From Poritiphilus flavus (GTDB lineage: Bacteria > Bacteroidota > Bacteroidia > Flavobacteriales > Flavobacteriaceae): a stretch of DNA of 64,000 nucleotides. The stretch is from the NCBI RefSeq assembly GCF_009901585.1, contig NZ_WXYO01000001.1:620001-684000 (forward strand), given 5' to 3'. The position numbers were made by a program, and so were the translations under genes. Each line of letters begins with the position of its first letter. Positions within the stretch are counted from its first letter, which is position 1. The notes under the pieces are model-generated. The model made no database searches, had not been told where the DNA came from, and saw only the letters and a list, made by a program, of their open reading frames with translations. Below, piece after piece: positions 15,661 through 58,361 of this stretch.

Positions 15661-15763
15661 AACCACTTCCGTCCAATAAACTAATGGGTTTTTAAGTTTC
15701 ACAACAGTTTAAGGCCAATACACAACATAAATTTAGAAGTTCGCTACATCGGATATACATTTA
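15661..15763 (+). promoter_or_regulatory. Extended promoter module, copy 1
   Basis: Shares with three other sites a diverged upstream block (15663-15686), TTTCACAACA (15697-15706), a second CACAACA 21 bases later inside CACAACATAAATTTAG (15721-15736), a 19-base spacer, and a -7 box TACATTTA (15756-15763). TTTAG stands in for the usual TTTG -33 element, and the -7 has A in place of the final G. Suited to an activator that binds the CACAACA repeats. Confidence 0.6.
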
Positions 15764-15768
15764 GACTG

Positions 15769-15980
15769 CAATTAAGTGCTAGTGTTATCCCGAGAAATCG
15801 GGGGCCCAAATCTGACAGAAATTTGATCTTCTAATGCGACCTCCGCTATGCTCAAAAAAAGTTTGGCGGGGCCCCAAATCGGCATTTTGACTAAAACAGT
15901 GCCCCTGTTCTAAAAGGGTCATATCAATTAAAAGAACCTGCTTAACTAATCTAACCCTGACTTCAACGTCAGGGTTTTTT
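15769..15980 (+). ncRNA. Candidate small RNA 1 (about 210 nt)
   Basis: Bounded by the copy-1 promoter module and a strong terminator at 15953-15980. The first 20 bases (AATTAAGTGCTAGTG) align with the other two candidates. It is longer because of a middle section with its own hairpins, for example CCCGA-GAAA-TCGGG near 15788. It shares CTTAACTAA near its 3' end with the others. No start codon with a convincing frame. Start position is inferred from the -7 box. Confidence 0.45.
15953..15980 (+). terminator. Intrinsic terminator of small RNA 1
   Basis: Perfect 9-bp stem AACCCTGAC / GTCAGGGTT with a 6-base loop, ending in six Ts. Confidence 0.85.
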
Positions 15981-15998
15981 ATTGTCAATTTACTTCCA

Positions 15999-16105
15999 GA
16001 AGTTGCACTTTATCGAAGAAACAGAACCGTTGATATTTTTCACAACATTTCACCTGGGGTTGACAACATAAATTTAGTTCGGGTAGTCCGTCTGAAGTAT
16101 CTTTA
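15999..16105 (+). promoter_or_regulatory. Extended promoter module, copy 2
   Basis: Upstream block GAAGTTGCACTTTATCGAAG (15999-16018), TTTCACAACA (16038-16047), ACAACATAAATTTAG (16063-16077), a 20-base spacer and -7 box TATCTTTA (16098-16105). It begins 18 bases after the terminator of small RNA 1, so the two units stand in tandem. Confidence 0.65.
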
Positions 16106-16110
16106 CCCTG

Positions 16111-16262
16111 TTTTAAGATTAGTGTTTACCCCCAAAGAAACCCTGAGCTTAACTGAAAATGCTGACTTAACTAAATAACTAGCCCCCAAGGCTATTGGTA
16201 ACGAACCAAATTTTACAGACCTACTTAACAAAAAAAGGCCCTTCTACTAAGGGCTTTTTTTG
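16111..16262 (+). ncRNA. Candidate small RNA 2 (about 150 nt)
   Basis: Runs from the copy-2 promoter to the terminator at 16231-16262. It aligns over nearly its full length with small RNA 3 at 22727-22880, sharing TTTAAGATTAGTGTTTACCC, AACCCTGA.CTTAAC, CTTAACTA, CCCCAAG.CTA and CCTACTTAA, while the terminator stems differ in sequence. That pattern, conserved body with a changed but still paired hairpin, favours a functional RNA. The longest frame, from GTG at 16122, is 18 codons and is not kept in copy 3. Confidence 0.55.
16231..16262 (+). terminator. Intrinsic terminator of small RNA 2
   Basis: Stem AAAAAAGGCCC / GGGCTTTTTT with one bulged G and a 9-base loop, followed by Ts. Confidence 0.8.
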
Positions 16263-16274
16263 TGGACTTATCTC

Positions 16275-16299: not shown

Positions 16300-16403
16300 G
16301 CCGCTAGCGCGGAATTGTATTCCTTGCAGGCGCTCCCGCCAGTCTGAGACTGCTGTTTTGGTTTAAGTAGTACCACGAGATACAATCTCGCGGTAGCGAA
16401 GGA
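16300..16403. repeat. REP-like palindromic element, copy 1
   Basis: Core at 16330-16403 (74 bp) is homologous to 22480-22553. Inside are a palindrome AGTCTGAGACT (16341-16351) and a hairpin CGAGAT-ACA-ATCTCG (16376-16390), enclosed by outer arms CGCTCCCGC and GCGGTAGCG (one mismatch), so the element can fold as a three-way junction. A further hairpin GGAAT-TGT-ATTCC lies just before it (16311-16323). Confidence 0.75.
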
Positions 16404-16512
16404 TTAACGTAATTAAACATTTAGCACTTAGCACCCAAAACCTTATTGCACCAGATTTCTTAAAAGTAGCACTAGTATAATCCACAACAACTGCTATAAA
16501 AAAAATCTTTAG

Positions 16513-22427: not shown

Positions 22428-22479
22428 GGCTTCGCACGGCGCTTTGCGATTAGCGCACTGCGGATTTTAGATGTTCCCG

Positions 22480-22553
22480 GCGCTACCGCCAGTCTGAGAC
22501 TGGTGGTTTAGTATAACTAGAACCACGAGATACAATCTCGCGGTAGCGAAGGA
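22480..22553. repeat. REP-like palindromic element, copy 2
   Basis: 74 bp, the same length as the core at 16330-16403 and differing at only about ten bases. Perfect outer arms CGCTACCGC (22481-22489) and GCGGTAGCG (22540-22548) enclose the palindrome CCAGTCTGAGACTGG and the hairpin CGAGAT-ACA-ATCTCG. Degenerate related sequence surrounds it (GCGCTTTGCGATTAGCGC at 22439-22456; GGAATTTCAATCTCGC after it). Confidence 0.8.
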
Positions 22554-22617
22554 CAAAGCGAATGAAAAGAGGAATTTCAATCTCGCAGCATCAAAGGATT
22601 GCAAATTGACACGATCT

Positions 22618-22721
22618 GAAGTGCGTTTTATCGAAGAAAATGACCCTTCATATTTTACACAACACGGGAGGGCGACTTCACAACATAAATTTAGTGGTGA
22701 CGGCCTTTCAGCATATCTTTA
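22618..22721 (+). promoter_or_regulatory. Extended promoter module, copy 3
   Basis: GAAGTGCGTTTTATCGAAGA (22618-22637), TTTTACACAACA (22653-22664), CACAACATAAATTTAG (22679-22694), a 19-base spacer and -7 box TATCTTTA (22714-22721). The two CACAACA repeats are 21 bases apart, as in copies 1 and 2. Confidence 0.65.
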
Positions 22722-22726
22722 CATTG

Positions 22727-22880
22727 TGTTTAAGATTAGTGTTTACCCCAAATCGAACCCTGAACTTAACCAACTAAACAAAATTAACCTACTTAACTAG
22801 TCCCCAAGACTACCAGAATTAAACCAGATCTTACAAACCTACTTAAAGTAAAAAAGCCTCCGGAATCGGAGGCTTTTTTA
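22727..22880 (+). ncRNA. Candidate small RNA 3 (about 150 nt)
   Basis: Closest relative of small RNA 2, collinear over its length from TTTAAGATTAGTGTTTACCC to CCTACTTAA. It contains no ATG at all. The only frame of note is 24 codons from GTG at 22728 (VFKISVYPKSNPEL...), and copy 2 does not keep it, which argues for an untranslated RNA. Confidence 0.55.
22851..22879. terminator. Bidirectional intrinsic terminator
   Basis: Perfect stem GCCTCCG-GAAT-CGGAGGC with A5 before and T6 after. It can end small RNA 3 on the plus strand and the DUF3078 gene on the minus strand. Confidence 0.9.
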
Positions 22881-22901
22881 TTTCAGCAATTTAAAGCTGT
22901 C

Positions 22902-54556: not shown

Positions 54557-55609
54557 TTGTTTGTATCGCTATCCGCGCCGTTGATACCGCTGGCTGGTTA
54601 TAAAGACGCTTTTTTTGGTATTTTTTGCGCAAATTCACACAATTTGCCAGGCAAACACATATATCGAATACTAATACACCTGCTCTTTTGGGCGTTATTC
54701 ATATTTATTTCCCTCTTCGTTTTCTCCGACTACTACTGGAAGGAGAACCCGTTCCTGCAATACTTTACGATTCTTCTTGCCCTGGTCTATCTGAATGATG
54801 TTTTCCTGCTTCCATTTTTCGTTCGAAGAAAAATGTACGCCTTATATGTGCTGTTGATAGGTGTTGTGGCCTTTTTCGCGACACAGCTTTACTGCAATTT
54901 CTTTGCGGAATGTGGCTGTTCTGTACCTAAGTGCCTCTCGAATTACCTTTGGCAAACACTGGTACCTCTTATTTTCTTTTCCTTTCTCTGGGTTCTGTTC
55001 AGGTACCTGGAAAACCAGGAAGAGATCCTTCGCGTTCGTAAGGAGCGAACGGAAATGGAACTGCAATACCTTAAATCCCAAATAAATCCTCATGTGCTAT
55101 TCAACAACCTTAATACTATATATTCCTATTCGCTTGAAAAGCCCAGACAGGTTCCGGAAATGATCCTTATGCTGTCCGACAATCTCAAGTATGTTCTTTA
55201 CGAAAGTGATTCCAGCAAAGTTTCGCTGGACAAGGAAATGGAGTATATAGACAATTATATACGCTTTCAGAAGATCAGGACTGAGAACATCAAGGAGATC
55301 AACTACGAAAAGGAGATAGATGACCAGGGATACTTTATCGCCCCCCTCCTTCTAATTGCCCTTATAGAGAACGCTTTCAAGCACAGCGCGGCTAACAGCA
55401 CCGTGGATATTCAGATCCGGGTAGAGGGCGGCACACTGGAATGCCTTTGCACAAACATCAGTAAAATTCAGGAAGATTCTGGCACATCTGCTTCCATAGG
55501 GTTGGAAAACCTCCAAAAAAGACTGAACTTGCTTTACAAAGACAAGCATGAGTTATCCATTGAAGCCACAGATGTCTACAAGGTTAAACTTAGATTGAAC
55601 CTCCTATGA
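54557..55609 (+). CDS. LytS-type sensor histidine kinase
   Basis: Up to 350 residues. Four membrane segments (LIHLLFWALFIFISLFVF, PFLQYFTILLALVYL, LYVLLIGVVAFFATQLY, TLVPLIFFSFLWVLF) precede a short cytoplasmic kinase: MELQYLKSQINPHVLFNNLNTIYSY with the phospho-His, and LIALIENAFKHSAANS. Both starts available are TTG (54557 or 54644); the later one begins just before the first membrane segment and is more likely. It overlaps the response regulator gene (ATGA). Confidence 0.9.
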   Translation: MFVSLSAPLIPLAGYKDAFFGIFCANSHNLPGKHIYRILIHLLFWALFIFISLFVFSDYYWKENPFLQYFTILLALVYLNDVFLLPFFVRRKMYALYVLLIGVVAFFATQLYCNFFAECGCSVPKCLSNYLWQTLVPLIFFSFLWVLFRYLENQEEILRVRKERTEMELQYLKSQINPHVLFNNLNTIYSYSLEKPRQVPEMILMLSDNLKYVLYESDSSKVSLDKEMEYIDNYIRFQKIRTENIKEINYEKEIDDQGYFIAPLLLIALIENAFKHSAANSTVDIQIRVEGGTLECLCTNISKIQEDSGTSASIGLENLQKRLNLLYKDKHELSIEATDVYKVKLRLNLL

Positions 55610-56304
55610 AATGCATTTTGATAGAAGATGAGATCCCGGCCCAAAAGGTGCTTCGGAATTATATCGACAAACTCGATAACCTGGAGTTTGTAGGGGCTTT
55701 TCAATCTGCAATCGCCGCCAATCCTTTCCTGAAAAAGAACGAGGTCGATCTCATTTTTATGGATATCAACCTTCCGGATATCACCGGGATTGAATATATC
55801 AGGACCCTGACCAACCCTCCACAGGTGATCATGACCACAGCTTACCCCAACTACGCCGTAGAAAGTTATGAATTGGACGCTGTGAGGGATTATCTGGTGA
55901 AGCCGTTTTCTTTTGAGCGATTCCTGAAAGCCGTGAATCGGGTACGCACGGGAATGCGCGAAAAAGAAAGCTATGAAGACAAGGACAGCAGGGATCCGGT
56001 ACTTTTCGTAAATGTGGATAAAACCCTGCATCGTATCAGGGCAGGGGAGATATTGTATATCGAGTCTGAAAAGAATTACGTTACCATCGTTACCCGTACA
56101 AACCGATTATCCTATATCGATTCCCTTAAAAACTGGCTTGATCGACTGCCTCAGGATCTCTTTGTACAGACCCATAAGTCCTACATCGTTAATCTAAGGG
56201 AAGTGGAGCAGGTAAACGGAAATCGCCTTACCGTAAAGGGTATTCGTTTACCCCTCGGCAGGACATATAAAACCACTTTCATGCAAAGATTGCACAAAGG
56301 TTAA
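55606..56304 (+). CDS. LytTR-type response regulator
   Basis: 232 residues. Receiver domain with phospho-Asp53 in LIFMDINLPDITG and YLVKPF, followed by a LytTR DNA-binding domain (HRIRAGEILYIESEKNYVTI near 145-164, FVQTHKSYIVNLREVEQ). Overlaps the kinase gene by 4 bp, so the two form one signalling pair. Targets are unknown. Confidence 0.95.
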   Translation: MKCILIEDEIPAQKVLRNYIDKLDNLEFVGAFQSAIAANPFLKKNEVDLIFMDINLPDITGIEYIRTLTNPPQVIMTTAYPNYAVESYELDAVRDYLVKPFSFERFLKAVNRVRTGMREKESYEDKDSRDPVLFVNVDKTLHRIRAGEILYIESEKNYVTIVTRTNRLSYIDSLKNWLDRLPQDLFVQTHKSYIVNLREVEQVNGNRLTVKGIRLPLGRTYKTTFMQRLHKG

Positions 56305-56307
56305 GGA

Positions 56308-57462
56308 TTATTTCAAGGCCTCATCGATCATTTTCATTAAGGTCCCGATCTTGGAGGGCTCCAGCCAACGGGTAACCACCACCAGGTCATTTTCCTTATC
56401 CACCACAATAAAATTACCGCCAAAGCCTGCGGCGTAATACAGATTTTCAGATAGTCCTTCCCAATGCCTGTTCCCTTTGGTATTCAACCACCACATATAG
56501 CCGTAATTCGGGTTGGGTTCAGATGGGGTAGTAGCCTTCGCGATCCACTGCTCGCTAATTAAGCGGTCTTTTTTCCAAACCCCCTGGTTTAGGAACAACA
56601 AGCCAAACCGGGCCATGTCTTCCGCATTAATAAAGATCCCCCCTCCGGAATGTCCGCCGCCTGTAACGGATTTCATTTGGATCCCGTCTATCTCTGTCCA
56701 GGCATTCTCATATCCATGCCAGCGCCAGGTAGTTGAGGCATCGATCTTATCCATGATCTCTTCCTTCAATACCATAGGCAGGGGTTTCCTTAAGACATGG
56801 GTCAGGGAATACGCCAACACATTTACCCTCACATCATTGTATTCCATTACCGTCCCGGGTTCGTTGAGTTTTCGGAATTTCCAATCGTCCAGGCTTCCTT
56901 CGCGAGGCGGCCGGTCTGCCCAATCTTTGCCACCCCAAAGTTCGCCGGACCAGTCTGAATTCTGTTGTAGCAGATGTTCCCAGCTGATCTTGCTATTGTG
57001 AGGACCCCCAAAGGTACCATCCCAGATATAGTCTTTCACCAGATCCCTAGTACTGTGGATCAAACCCTGATCTACCGCTAGACCGGCCATGGTGGATAAA
57101 AAGCTTTTGGTGACGCTAAATGTCATATCCACGCGGTTGGTATCTCCCCATTTCCCAACGATGTATCCATTCTTTAGCAGCAAGCCAGCCGGGCCACCTC
57201 TTTTCTTGGTCGGTCCTAAGATCTCGTGAAAAGGCTCCCTTTCAAAGCCTTTGAGAATGGCTATCCTAAGATCTCTTGAGCCGGAATATTCATTATCCTG
57301 CGCGAAGCGGATGGCTTCATTTAGTTTGGTGTCGTCAAAACCGTATTCCTTAGCCGGCTTTTCCTCCCAGTTATGGCGTTCCGGGAAGTAATAATTCTGT
57401 TGTGAGAAAACCAGACCTCCCCAAAAGAGCAAAGTCAGGCAAAGCGTAACTCTCATTTTCAT
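56308..57462 (-). CDS. Exported serine hydrolase (beta-lactamase-like)
   Basis: 384 residues with signal peptide MKMRVTLCLTLLFWGGLVFSQ. Catalytic SxxK is SVTK (Ser116, Lys119); YND (in GTVMEYNDVRVN) is the second motif; the third is degenerate (AAGFGGNFIVV in place of HSG/KTG), a known variant in esterase-like members. Substrate unknown. It follows the acetyltransferase gene with a 4-bp overlap. Confidence 0.88.
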   Translation of the reverse strand: MKMRVTLCLTLLFWGGLVFSQQNYYFPERHNWEEKPAKEYGFDDTKLNEAIRFAQDNEYSGSRDLRIAILKGFEREPFHEILGPTKKRGGPAGLLLKNGYIVGKWGDTNRVDMTFSVTKSFLSTMAGLAVDQGLIHSTRDLVKDYIWDGTFGGPHNSKISWEHLLQQNSDWSGELWGGKDWADRPPREGSLDDWKFRKLNEPGTVMEYNDVRVNVLAYSLTHVLRKPLPMVLKEEIMDKIDASTTWRWHGYENAWTEIDGIQMKSVTGGGHSGGGIFINAEDMARFGLLFLNQGVWKKDRLISEQWIAKATTPSEPNPNYGYMWWLNTKGNRHWEGLSENLYYAAGFGGNFIVVDKENDLVVVTRWLEPSKIGTLMKMIDEALK

Positions 57463-58004: not shown

Positions 58005-58032
58005 GTTCTGATAAATCAGAACTAAAAATAAA

Positions 58033-58064
58033 AAAAGGAGCAAAACCTAAGCCTTACTCCTTTT
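58033..58064 (-). terminator. Intrinsic terminator of the 35-residue gene
   Basis: Stem AAAAGGAG (58033-58040) / CTCCTTTT (58057-58064) with a 16-base loop. On the minus strand it ends in a long T-run (A-run at 58025-58036 on the plus strand). Confidence 0.75.
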
Positions 58065-58084: not shown

Positions 58085-58192
58085 TTATAGCATGAATAGT
58101 TTTCGTGTTAGCATCAAAATACCACTGTAAAAGTCATTCCGATACACTTGCACTTCTTCTTCAGTAGGTCTGTTGTTCATTTGGGCATCCAT
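58085..58192 (-). CDS. 35-residue small protein under the shared promoter module
   Basis: Reads MDAQMNNRPTEEEVQVYRND then FYSGILMLTRKLFML. Acidic N-terminal half, and a hydrophobic, basic C-terminal half that could form an amphipathic or membrane-binding helix. It has its own promoter module (58257-58361), a leader of about 60 nt and a terminator, so it is a complete transcription unit between scoB and the acetyltransferase. No family recognised. Confidence 0.6.
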   Translation of the reverse strand: MDAQMNNRPTEEEVQVYRNDFYSGILMLTRKLFML

Positions 58193-58256
58193 AGTCTGTA
58201 GGTTTAAAAGTTAAATCCCGGTAAATTTGGGGAGGGATCGACTTTTTTATTTGTTA

Positions 58257-58361
58257 TAAAGATACTATCTAAACCCCTTTCGGTCTAAATTATTGTTGTG
58301 AACCGCCCTCATCTTGTGGTTAAAATAACGAGTGTTTTAATTTTTTCGATGAAATGCACTC
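58257..58361 (-). promoter_or_regulatory. Extended promoter module, copy 4
   Basis: On the minus strand: upstream block GAGTGCATTTCATCGA (58361-58346), a CACAAGA/CACAACA pair (18 bases apart here rather than 21), TTCACAACAATAATTTAG (58302-58285), a 20-base spacer and -7 box TATCTTTA (58264-58257). It aligns with copy 3 almost end to end, including the segment GAGGGCG between the CACAACA repeats. Confidence 0.6.

Follow-up and report, generated by a model that had tools for sequence, protein, structure and literature searches.

In the VirR–VR-RNA system of Clostridium, a LytTR regulator is combined with paired direct repeats separated by about 12 bp. The AgrA–RNAIII system of Staphylococcus shares these features, with AgrA controlling a regulatory RNA (PMC4064291), and LytTR regulators bind a pair of direct repeats, spaced by about 12 bp, that lie directly upstream of the -35 element (PMC4064291, PMC6193735), their half-site sequence being poorly conserved and their spacing conserved (PMC6193735). 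Little is known about post-transcriptional regulation in Bacteroidota. No obvious Hfq or ProQ is present in Bacteroides, and in Bacteroides thetaiotaomicron the trans-acting sRNA GibS pairs with translation starts through a conserved, unpaired seed (PMC7366714). Among flavobacteria, Rfp18 and other sRNAs of Flavobacterium psychrophilum have effects on secreted proteins (PMC9723704).

The window analyzed here, the whole 64,000-nucleotide stretch G000:C10:620001-684000 of a 4.99 Mb Flavobacteriaceae genome, contains four long promoter modules, M1–M3 on the plus strand and M4 on the minus strand. We assign these, with a probability of roughly 0.8, to a single regulon of activator-dependent promoters that is controlled by a two-component system on contig C16 and comprises three kinds of transcript. 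An earlier sequence-only reading had located all four modules and described boxes 21 bp apart with a 19–20 bp spacer, and the sequence bears this out in each of them. The order is an optional upstream block (TGCATTTCATCGAAGAA), often a ACCGTTNAT-like stretch, then CACAACA, 14 bp, CACAACA, TTTAG, 19–20 bp and TATCTTTA. The 21 bp box period holds for M1–M4 and for nearly all modules in an alignment of 33, TTTAG begins 4–5 bp past the second box in M1–M4 and in the module alignments, and the distance from TTTAG to the -7 element is 19 or 20 bp in M1–M4. The primary sigma promoter of Bacteroidota has TTTG at -33 and TAnnTTTG at -7; in the module alignment, -33 is TTTAG and -7 is mostly TAnnTTTA, sometimes TAnnTTTG, at a spacing of 19–20 bp. 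It is plausible that the modules use an activator-dependent variant of that promoter.

In M1, the LytTR-type direct repeat with its 21-bp period consists of CACAACA at 15700-15706 and 15721-15727 (plus strand; sequence and profile matches), followed by a core promoter of TTTAG (15732-15736), 19 bp and TACATTTA (15756-15763; sequence and alignments). Its predicted transcript, a divergent and longer sibling sRNA, spans 15768..15982 on the plus strand, with a 5' end inferred from the -7 box and a terminator at 15953-15976 plus T run (terminator scan; fold z -2.4). The upstream block, which had been claimed for both units of the tandem pair M1 and M2, is present in M2, M3 and M4, but M1 has none that is convincing (CACTTCCGTCCAATAAA). 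M2, also on the plus strand, carries the block GCACTTTATCGAAGAA at 16005..16020, proposed as the site of a second, unknown factor, the repeat CACAACA (16041-16047) and GACAACA (16062-16068; sequence, alignment and profile matches), and a core promoter of TTTAG (16073-16077), 20 bp and TATCTTTA (16098-16105; sequence and alignments). The sRNA predicted to follow at 16110..16263 is made up of hairpin 1 (16113-16152), hairpin 2 (16180-16194, loop CCCAA) and a terminator (16230-16262). M3 repeats this layout on the plus strand, with GCGTTTTATCGAAGAA at 22623..22638 (sequence, window repeats and alignment), CACAACA at 22658-22664 and 22679-22685, and TTTAG (22690-22694), 19 bp and TATCTTTA (22714-22721), the repeat and promoter resting on sequence and alignment and the repeat also on the profile; its predicted sRNA, an M2 sibling whose body is covered by repeats D4 and D7, spans 22726..22880 with a terminator at 22850-22881. 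On the minus strand, M4 comprises TGCATTTCATCGAAAAAA at 58341..58358 (sequence and block pattern search), ACCACA (58320-58315) and CACAACA (58300-58294; sequence, alignment and profile), and TTTAG (58289-58285), 20 bp and TATCTTTA (58264-58257; sequence and alignment). A 94-nt repeat of 84% identity lies in the spacer after M2 (16324-16417) and before M3 (22474-22567); it contains CGCTACCGCCAGTCTGAGACTG...AATCTCGCGGTAGCG, a sequence capable of folding on itself.

The existence of the modules is supported by computation. The exact 15-mer ACAACATAAATTTAG has three copies in the 4.99 Mb genome, all within the window, which argues against chance. A profile built only from the sequences of M1–M4 recovered these four, its own training set, at E = 1e-22 to 1e-26, with the next genome site at 1e-5; it gave 7–10 modules in each of five other genera.

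On contig C16, the next-best genome matches fall in the stretch that separates the gene of a LytTR response regulator from that of a histidine kinase (G000:C16:108937-109686 and downstream). The regulator has receiver and LytTR domains, the kinase TPR and HisKA_2 domains, and the spacer between the two genes contains several CACAACA pairs, one of them ahead of a very short transcript that we call family B. Orthologs of this regulator (E <= 1e-70) occur in 50/250 Flavobacteriaceae genomes. All 50 have modules, at least two in 49/50 and up to 15, and the 200 regulator-negative genomes gave nine single weak module matches, one per genome. Six genomes went into training the module model, which leaves 44 regulator-positive genomes that are independent of the training set. 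Since the regulator-positive genomes are probably one clade, the co-occurrence does not amount to 50 independent events, and because the distribution thus partly reflects common descent, the adjacency of boxes and gene is the stronger argument. In plain pattern searches of the 1 kb downstream of the regulator gene, 68/80 named loci have a box pair and 47/80 the exact B seed; boxes beside the gene were also seen at loci L100-L105. Ten Arenibacter loci (L158, L166, L181, L183, L188, L193, L198, L200, L204 and L205) show neither boxes nor B in the downstream sequence examined (up to 1 kb) and keep the regulator at 90-91% identity.

Identity of the regulator is unusually high, about 90-95% across most genera, and its closest named relatives are in Muriicola and Eudoraea (94-95% protein identity). 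Among 60 relatives, 91-92% orthologs occur in exactly the five genera with strong modules. One genome (G030) has a 71% ortholog; it gave no match with the first profile and two with a larger one. By domain, the neighbours of the locus are a CvfB-like protein, a SPOR protein, UbiA and an MBL-fold hydrolase; the first three, a CvfB-like S1-domain protein with possible RNA binding, a SPOR-domain protein and a UbiA prenyltransferase, precede the regulator (L070 5382-7876), and a weak module match (E 0.02) lies ahead of the SPOR gene.

Conservation well upstream of -33 had been read as pointing to an activator with two sites two helical turns apart. This agrees with the finding that the modules track one LytTR response regulator in 250 genomes and adjoin its gene. 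The box geometry fits LytTR sites, as a 21-bp period corresponds to a gap of about 12 bp for 9-bp sites; geometry alone fits, since CACAACA, judged by eye, does not match the classical LytTR half-site consensus.

The window contains a LytTR regulator and His_kinase pair of its own (54557-56304), which lies 2 kb from M4, includes LytTR and receiver domains and could be imagined to own the sites. We consider this very improbable, because orthologs of that regulator (55606-56304) are absent from the module-rich genomes G001 and G011 and present in the module-free genomes G019 and G034, and are just 52-55% identical, and because no module lies in the promoter of the window gene; the pair is rejected on its distribution across genomes. 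Less easily dismissed, although still unlikely, is that another LytTR paralog, or several of the 39 LytTR matches in the genome, reads the CACAACA pair and that the C16 regulator merely shares the site. Paralogs can share sites, and only one other of the 39 was compared; however, the boxes flank the C16 regulator gene in most genera, and its distribution matches that of the modules in 50/50 genomes. The sequence-only reading had also allowed that the blocks might be parts of a dispersed repeat without link to terminators. A repeat or mobile element with no regulatory role might account for the 12 module matches (E <= 0.001) in this genome and for the other dispersed repeats near M2 and M3, but the idea is scarcely credible: in model searches of this and related genomes, the modules keep their promoter geometry, their terminators and an ORF and follow a regulator, and reading of the flanks showed that modules in other genera again sit next to hflX, DUF3078 and the CoA-transferase/GNAT genes. 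This shared gene context contradicts a mobile element. The C16 LytTR response regulator is thus taken to be the activator of the modules on the strength of its linkage to them, although binding has not been shown.

Among the transcripts, M2 and M3 are siblings that define family A. Their bodies are collinear and their terminator stems differ yet pair, as had been claimed; the description of sibling bodies does not extend to M1, which keeps the boxes and core promoter but has lost likeness in the upstream block and has a different, longer body. Homologues with the same order occur in many genera as singles, pairs or triples. Folding of the M2 and M3 RNAs is more stable than that of shuffled sequence (z -2.7 and -4.4), and the earlier view of these units as sRNA genes is upheld insofar as their conserved, structured bodies run up to terminators; transcription is inferred and has not been shown. 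The fixed feature of the family is CCCCAAA between arms that vary by genus (for example AAGTGCC/GGCACTT, AAATGCT/AGCATTT, TTTCGAT/ATCGAAA and GGGACT/AGTCCC). In a first set of sequences, 23/40 cores lay in hairpin loops against 10 expected; in a held-out set, fetched after the idea was framed, this was so for 62/95 CCCAAA cores against 34.4 expected, with a loop definition under which the end bases of the core may be paired. No comparable loop excess was seen for other hexamers of these held-out RNAs, and many family A RNAs have two or three motif hairpins. Counting pairs in hairpin 1, which is conserved, gave 88% paired positions with no covariation above shuffles, so it is loop conservation that carries the structural claim.

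What family A does can only be inferred. One proposal, which we regard as doubtful, is that these RNAs act as sponges for an RNA-binding protein, as yet unknown, that would recognize CCCAAA(U) in hairpin loops and in the leaders of regulon mRNAs. It would account for the repetition of one motif in several hairpins with changing stems and for the sense motif in the leaders of some regulon mRNAs, including those for secreted proteins. Against it, no protein partner is known, the enrichment of CCCAAATC in leaders of this genome is weak (3 sense vs 0 antisense), and CCCAAATC leaders are not significantly tied to ACAACA boxes genome-wide; in the absence of general enrichment, only a handful of regulon genes support the leader side of the idea. 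If true, it would mean a CsrA/Rsm-like circuit whose LytTR two-component system would also produce B, an antisense sRNA, and a microprotein; to our knowledge, no CsrA/Rsm-like circuit is known in this lineage. Possible as well, if tentative, is that the CCCCAAA loops and the 5' arm pair with mRNAs and hold no protein. GibS of Bacteroides acts by pairing with start regions (PMC7366714), and among the partners that score best for M2 and M3 jointly is the start region of a SusD-like lipoprotein gene (C14:31348, TTGGGGTGAACATTAAAATCT; -22.0 and -24.5 kcal/mol). Shuffled queries attain -21 to -24 kcal/mol, however, so that no candidate in the genome-wide search, the SusD-like gene included, is clearly beyond shuffles; GATTTGGGG, the complement of the loop, has no site within 60 nt upstream of starts (1.66 Mb), and the loop is fixed while the stems vary. 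Neither the sponge nor the antisense proposal is strongly favored, and other or combined roles make up the remainder.

Several further genes carry elements of the same kind. Box-bearing promoters are found at L232 and L242 (contigs C17 and C14 of the same genome), both with leaders that contain CCCAAATC; one gene encodes a secreted, collagen-like protein, the other a protein whose C-terminal tail resembles those of type IX secretion cargo. The gene for a secreted leucine-rich-repeat protein has an upstream box pair in this genome and in two other genera (L046/L231, L122 and L126), which suggests that the regulon may include structural genes. The leaders at C16:271020 and C15:235461, without LytTR boxes, contain ATCCC(C)AAATC and later TTRACCTA right before the start codon, and resemble the leaders of family A and M4.

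Family B, which lies outside the window, adds a second sRNA family to the regulon of sibling sRNAs that had been proposed. At the C16 spacer it consists of AATTTTTTCATTTTCATATAGTGTTCTCGTAAAAGAGTC and a terminator and is very short; the same body follows another module on C15. Its seed, UUUUCAUUUUCAUAUAGUGUUCUCG, is unpaired and near-invariant across genera, whereas the terminator is variable. When the genome was searched for the seed complement, the only site outside the B loci was the start codon of a CAP-domain lipoprotein gene. In 15 other genomes, a 20-mer search allowing up to three mismatches gave 31 non-identical matches against 10 for the reversed pattern (hand count), and of the 20 non-sRNA matches followed up, 7 fall on the start codon of the CAP lipoprotein ortholog, which makes eight genomes in all. 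The B–target duplexes range from -24 to -30 kcal/mol (computed for 7/8 genomes), and 11/15 target substitutions keep a G-U pair (hand count). The CAP start of this genome ranks first of 1363 start regions, at -26.1 vs -22.0 kcal/mol for the next. As 2/5 shuffles of B found partners at -23.5 and -23.8 kcal/mol, the value of -26.1 alone is not overwhelming, and the case rests mainly on the recurrence of the match at orthologous start codons. This complementarity is supported by computation; from it we infer that B may block translation of the CAP-domain lipoprotein, a secreted protein, the repression itself being inferred. The second-best partner of B is the start of a beta-lactamase-fold gene in the window (CTACTATATGAAAATGAGAG; 56308-57462, minus strand; -22.0 kcal/mol), which may be chance.

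The upstream block of M2–M4 also occurs about 130-150 nt before the lipoprotein start in seven genomes, there without LytTR boxes. TGCATTTCATCG has six copies in 1.66 Mb, all intergenic and none within genes, and a looser pattern also gave six, again all intergenic. As the block is common to the sRNA modules and the lipoprotein gene and, in that 1.66 Mb, occurs only between genes, a second, unknown factor probably joins the sRNA genes and their putative target gene, a conclusion drawn from the distribution of the motif. The attribution of all upstream conservation to one activator is consequently retained for the two boxes only; the upstream block is a separate element.

M4 departs from the picture of an sRNA regulon, which is otherwise supported, in that its unit is not RNA-only. 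It reads through a conserved 35-codon ORF (58192-58085) that encodes the microprotein MDAQMNNRPTEEEVQVYRNDFYSGILMLTRKLFML (35 aa; 58085..58192, minus strand) and ends in a terminator of GGAG...CTCC followed by a T run (58028..58063, minus strand). In other genomes, 17 homologues of 33-35 residues lie downstream of modules, with a consensus of approximately MEAQMNxxxxEEIQVYxNDFxSGIVMLxRKLFML, and changes are biased to third codon positions, which indicates that the ORF is protein-coding. Neither Pfam nor NCBIfam gave a match, and any function is inferred. The leader hairpin ATCCC-TCCCCAAATTTACC-GGGAT (58215..58238, minus strand), supported by its sequence and by the leaders of other microprotein units, carries the family A loop motif, and CCCAAA occurs in many microprotein leaders.

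A working model can be proposed in which the TPR-domain HisKA_2 kinase and the LytTR response regulator, encoded together, would run the regulon. The phosphorylated regulator would bind the two CACAACA boxes just upstream of -33 and start short transcripts; both phosphorylation and binding are inferred, whereas the link between modules and regulator and the conservation of all three transcript kinds are supported by computation. The first kind would be sibling sRNAs of small hairpins showing the CCCCAAA loop, itself a supported feature (M2, M3 and, more loosely, M1). Family B, encoded beside the regulator gene and elsewhere, would be the second, with a seed predicted to pair with the start of the CAP lipoprotein mRNA and block it, and the third would be the M4 mRNA for the conserved microprotein of 33-35 aa. 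The proposed regulon is spread over about 48 genera of Flavobacteriaceae of marine type, including Zobellia, Maribacter, Muriicola and Eudoraea.

The suggestion that these RNAs might be undescribed stands: Rfam 15 gave no match at or above the gathering threshold in the window or in 14 related loci, the best sub-threshold hits being mostly terminator matches, and a literature search that did not cover bioRxiv found no paper on the regulon. Taken together, the proposed regulator, the two sRNA families, a predicted target in which start-codon complementarity recurs, and a new conserved microprotein would make up a large sRNA regulon.

The kind of system, a two-component system controlling sRNAs, is known from AgrA–RNAIII and Gac–Rsm, but defining features tested for those systems are lacking here. 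In contrast to AgrA–RNAIII, the kinase is of the TPR and HisKA_2 type and not of the AgrC type, no AgrB- or AgrD-like genes are present among the neighbouring genes examined at the C16 regulator locus, and many short sRNAs in two families plus a microprotein take the place of one large RNA. The GacA–RsmY/RsmZ/CsrB systems are similar in that a two-component system controls multi-copy sRNAs with a loop motif repeated in several hairpins, and in that a similar motif occurs in some mRNA leaders of the regulon; they differ in that the motif here is CCCAAA and not GGA, no RNA-binding partner is known and the regulator is of the LytTR type. The Rfp18 work likewise concerns flavobacterial sRNAs and makes no mention of LytTR (PMC9723704). 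Family B meets a GibS-like criterion, a conserved unpaired seed complementary to a translation start. No sequence relation to GibS has been shown, and B differs in being multi-copy and very short, under a LytTR system and with a CAP lipoprotein as its predicted target.
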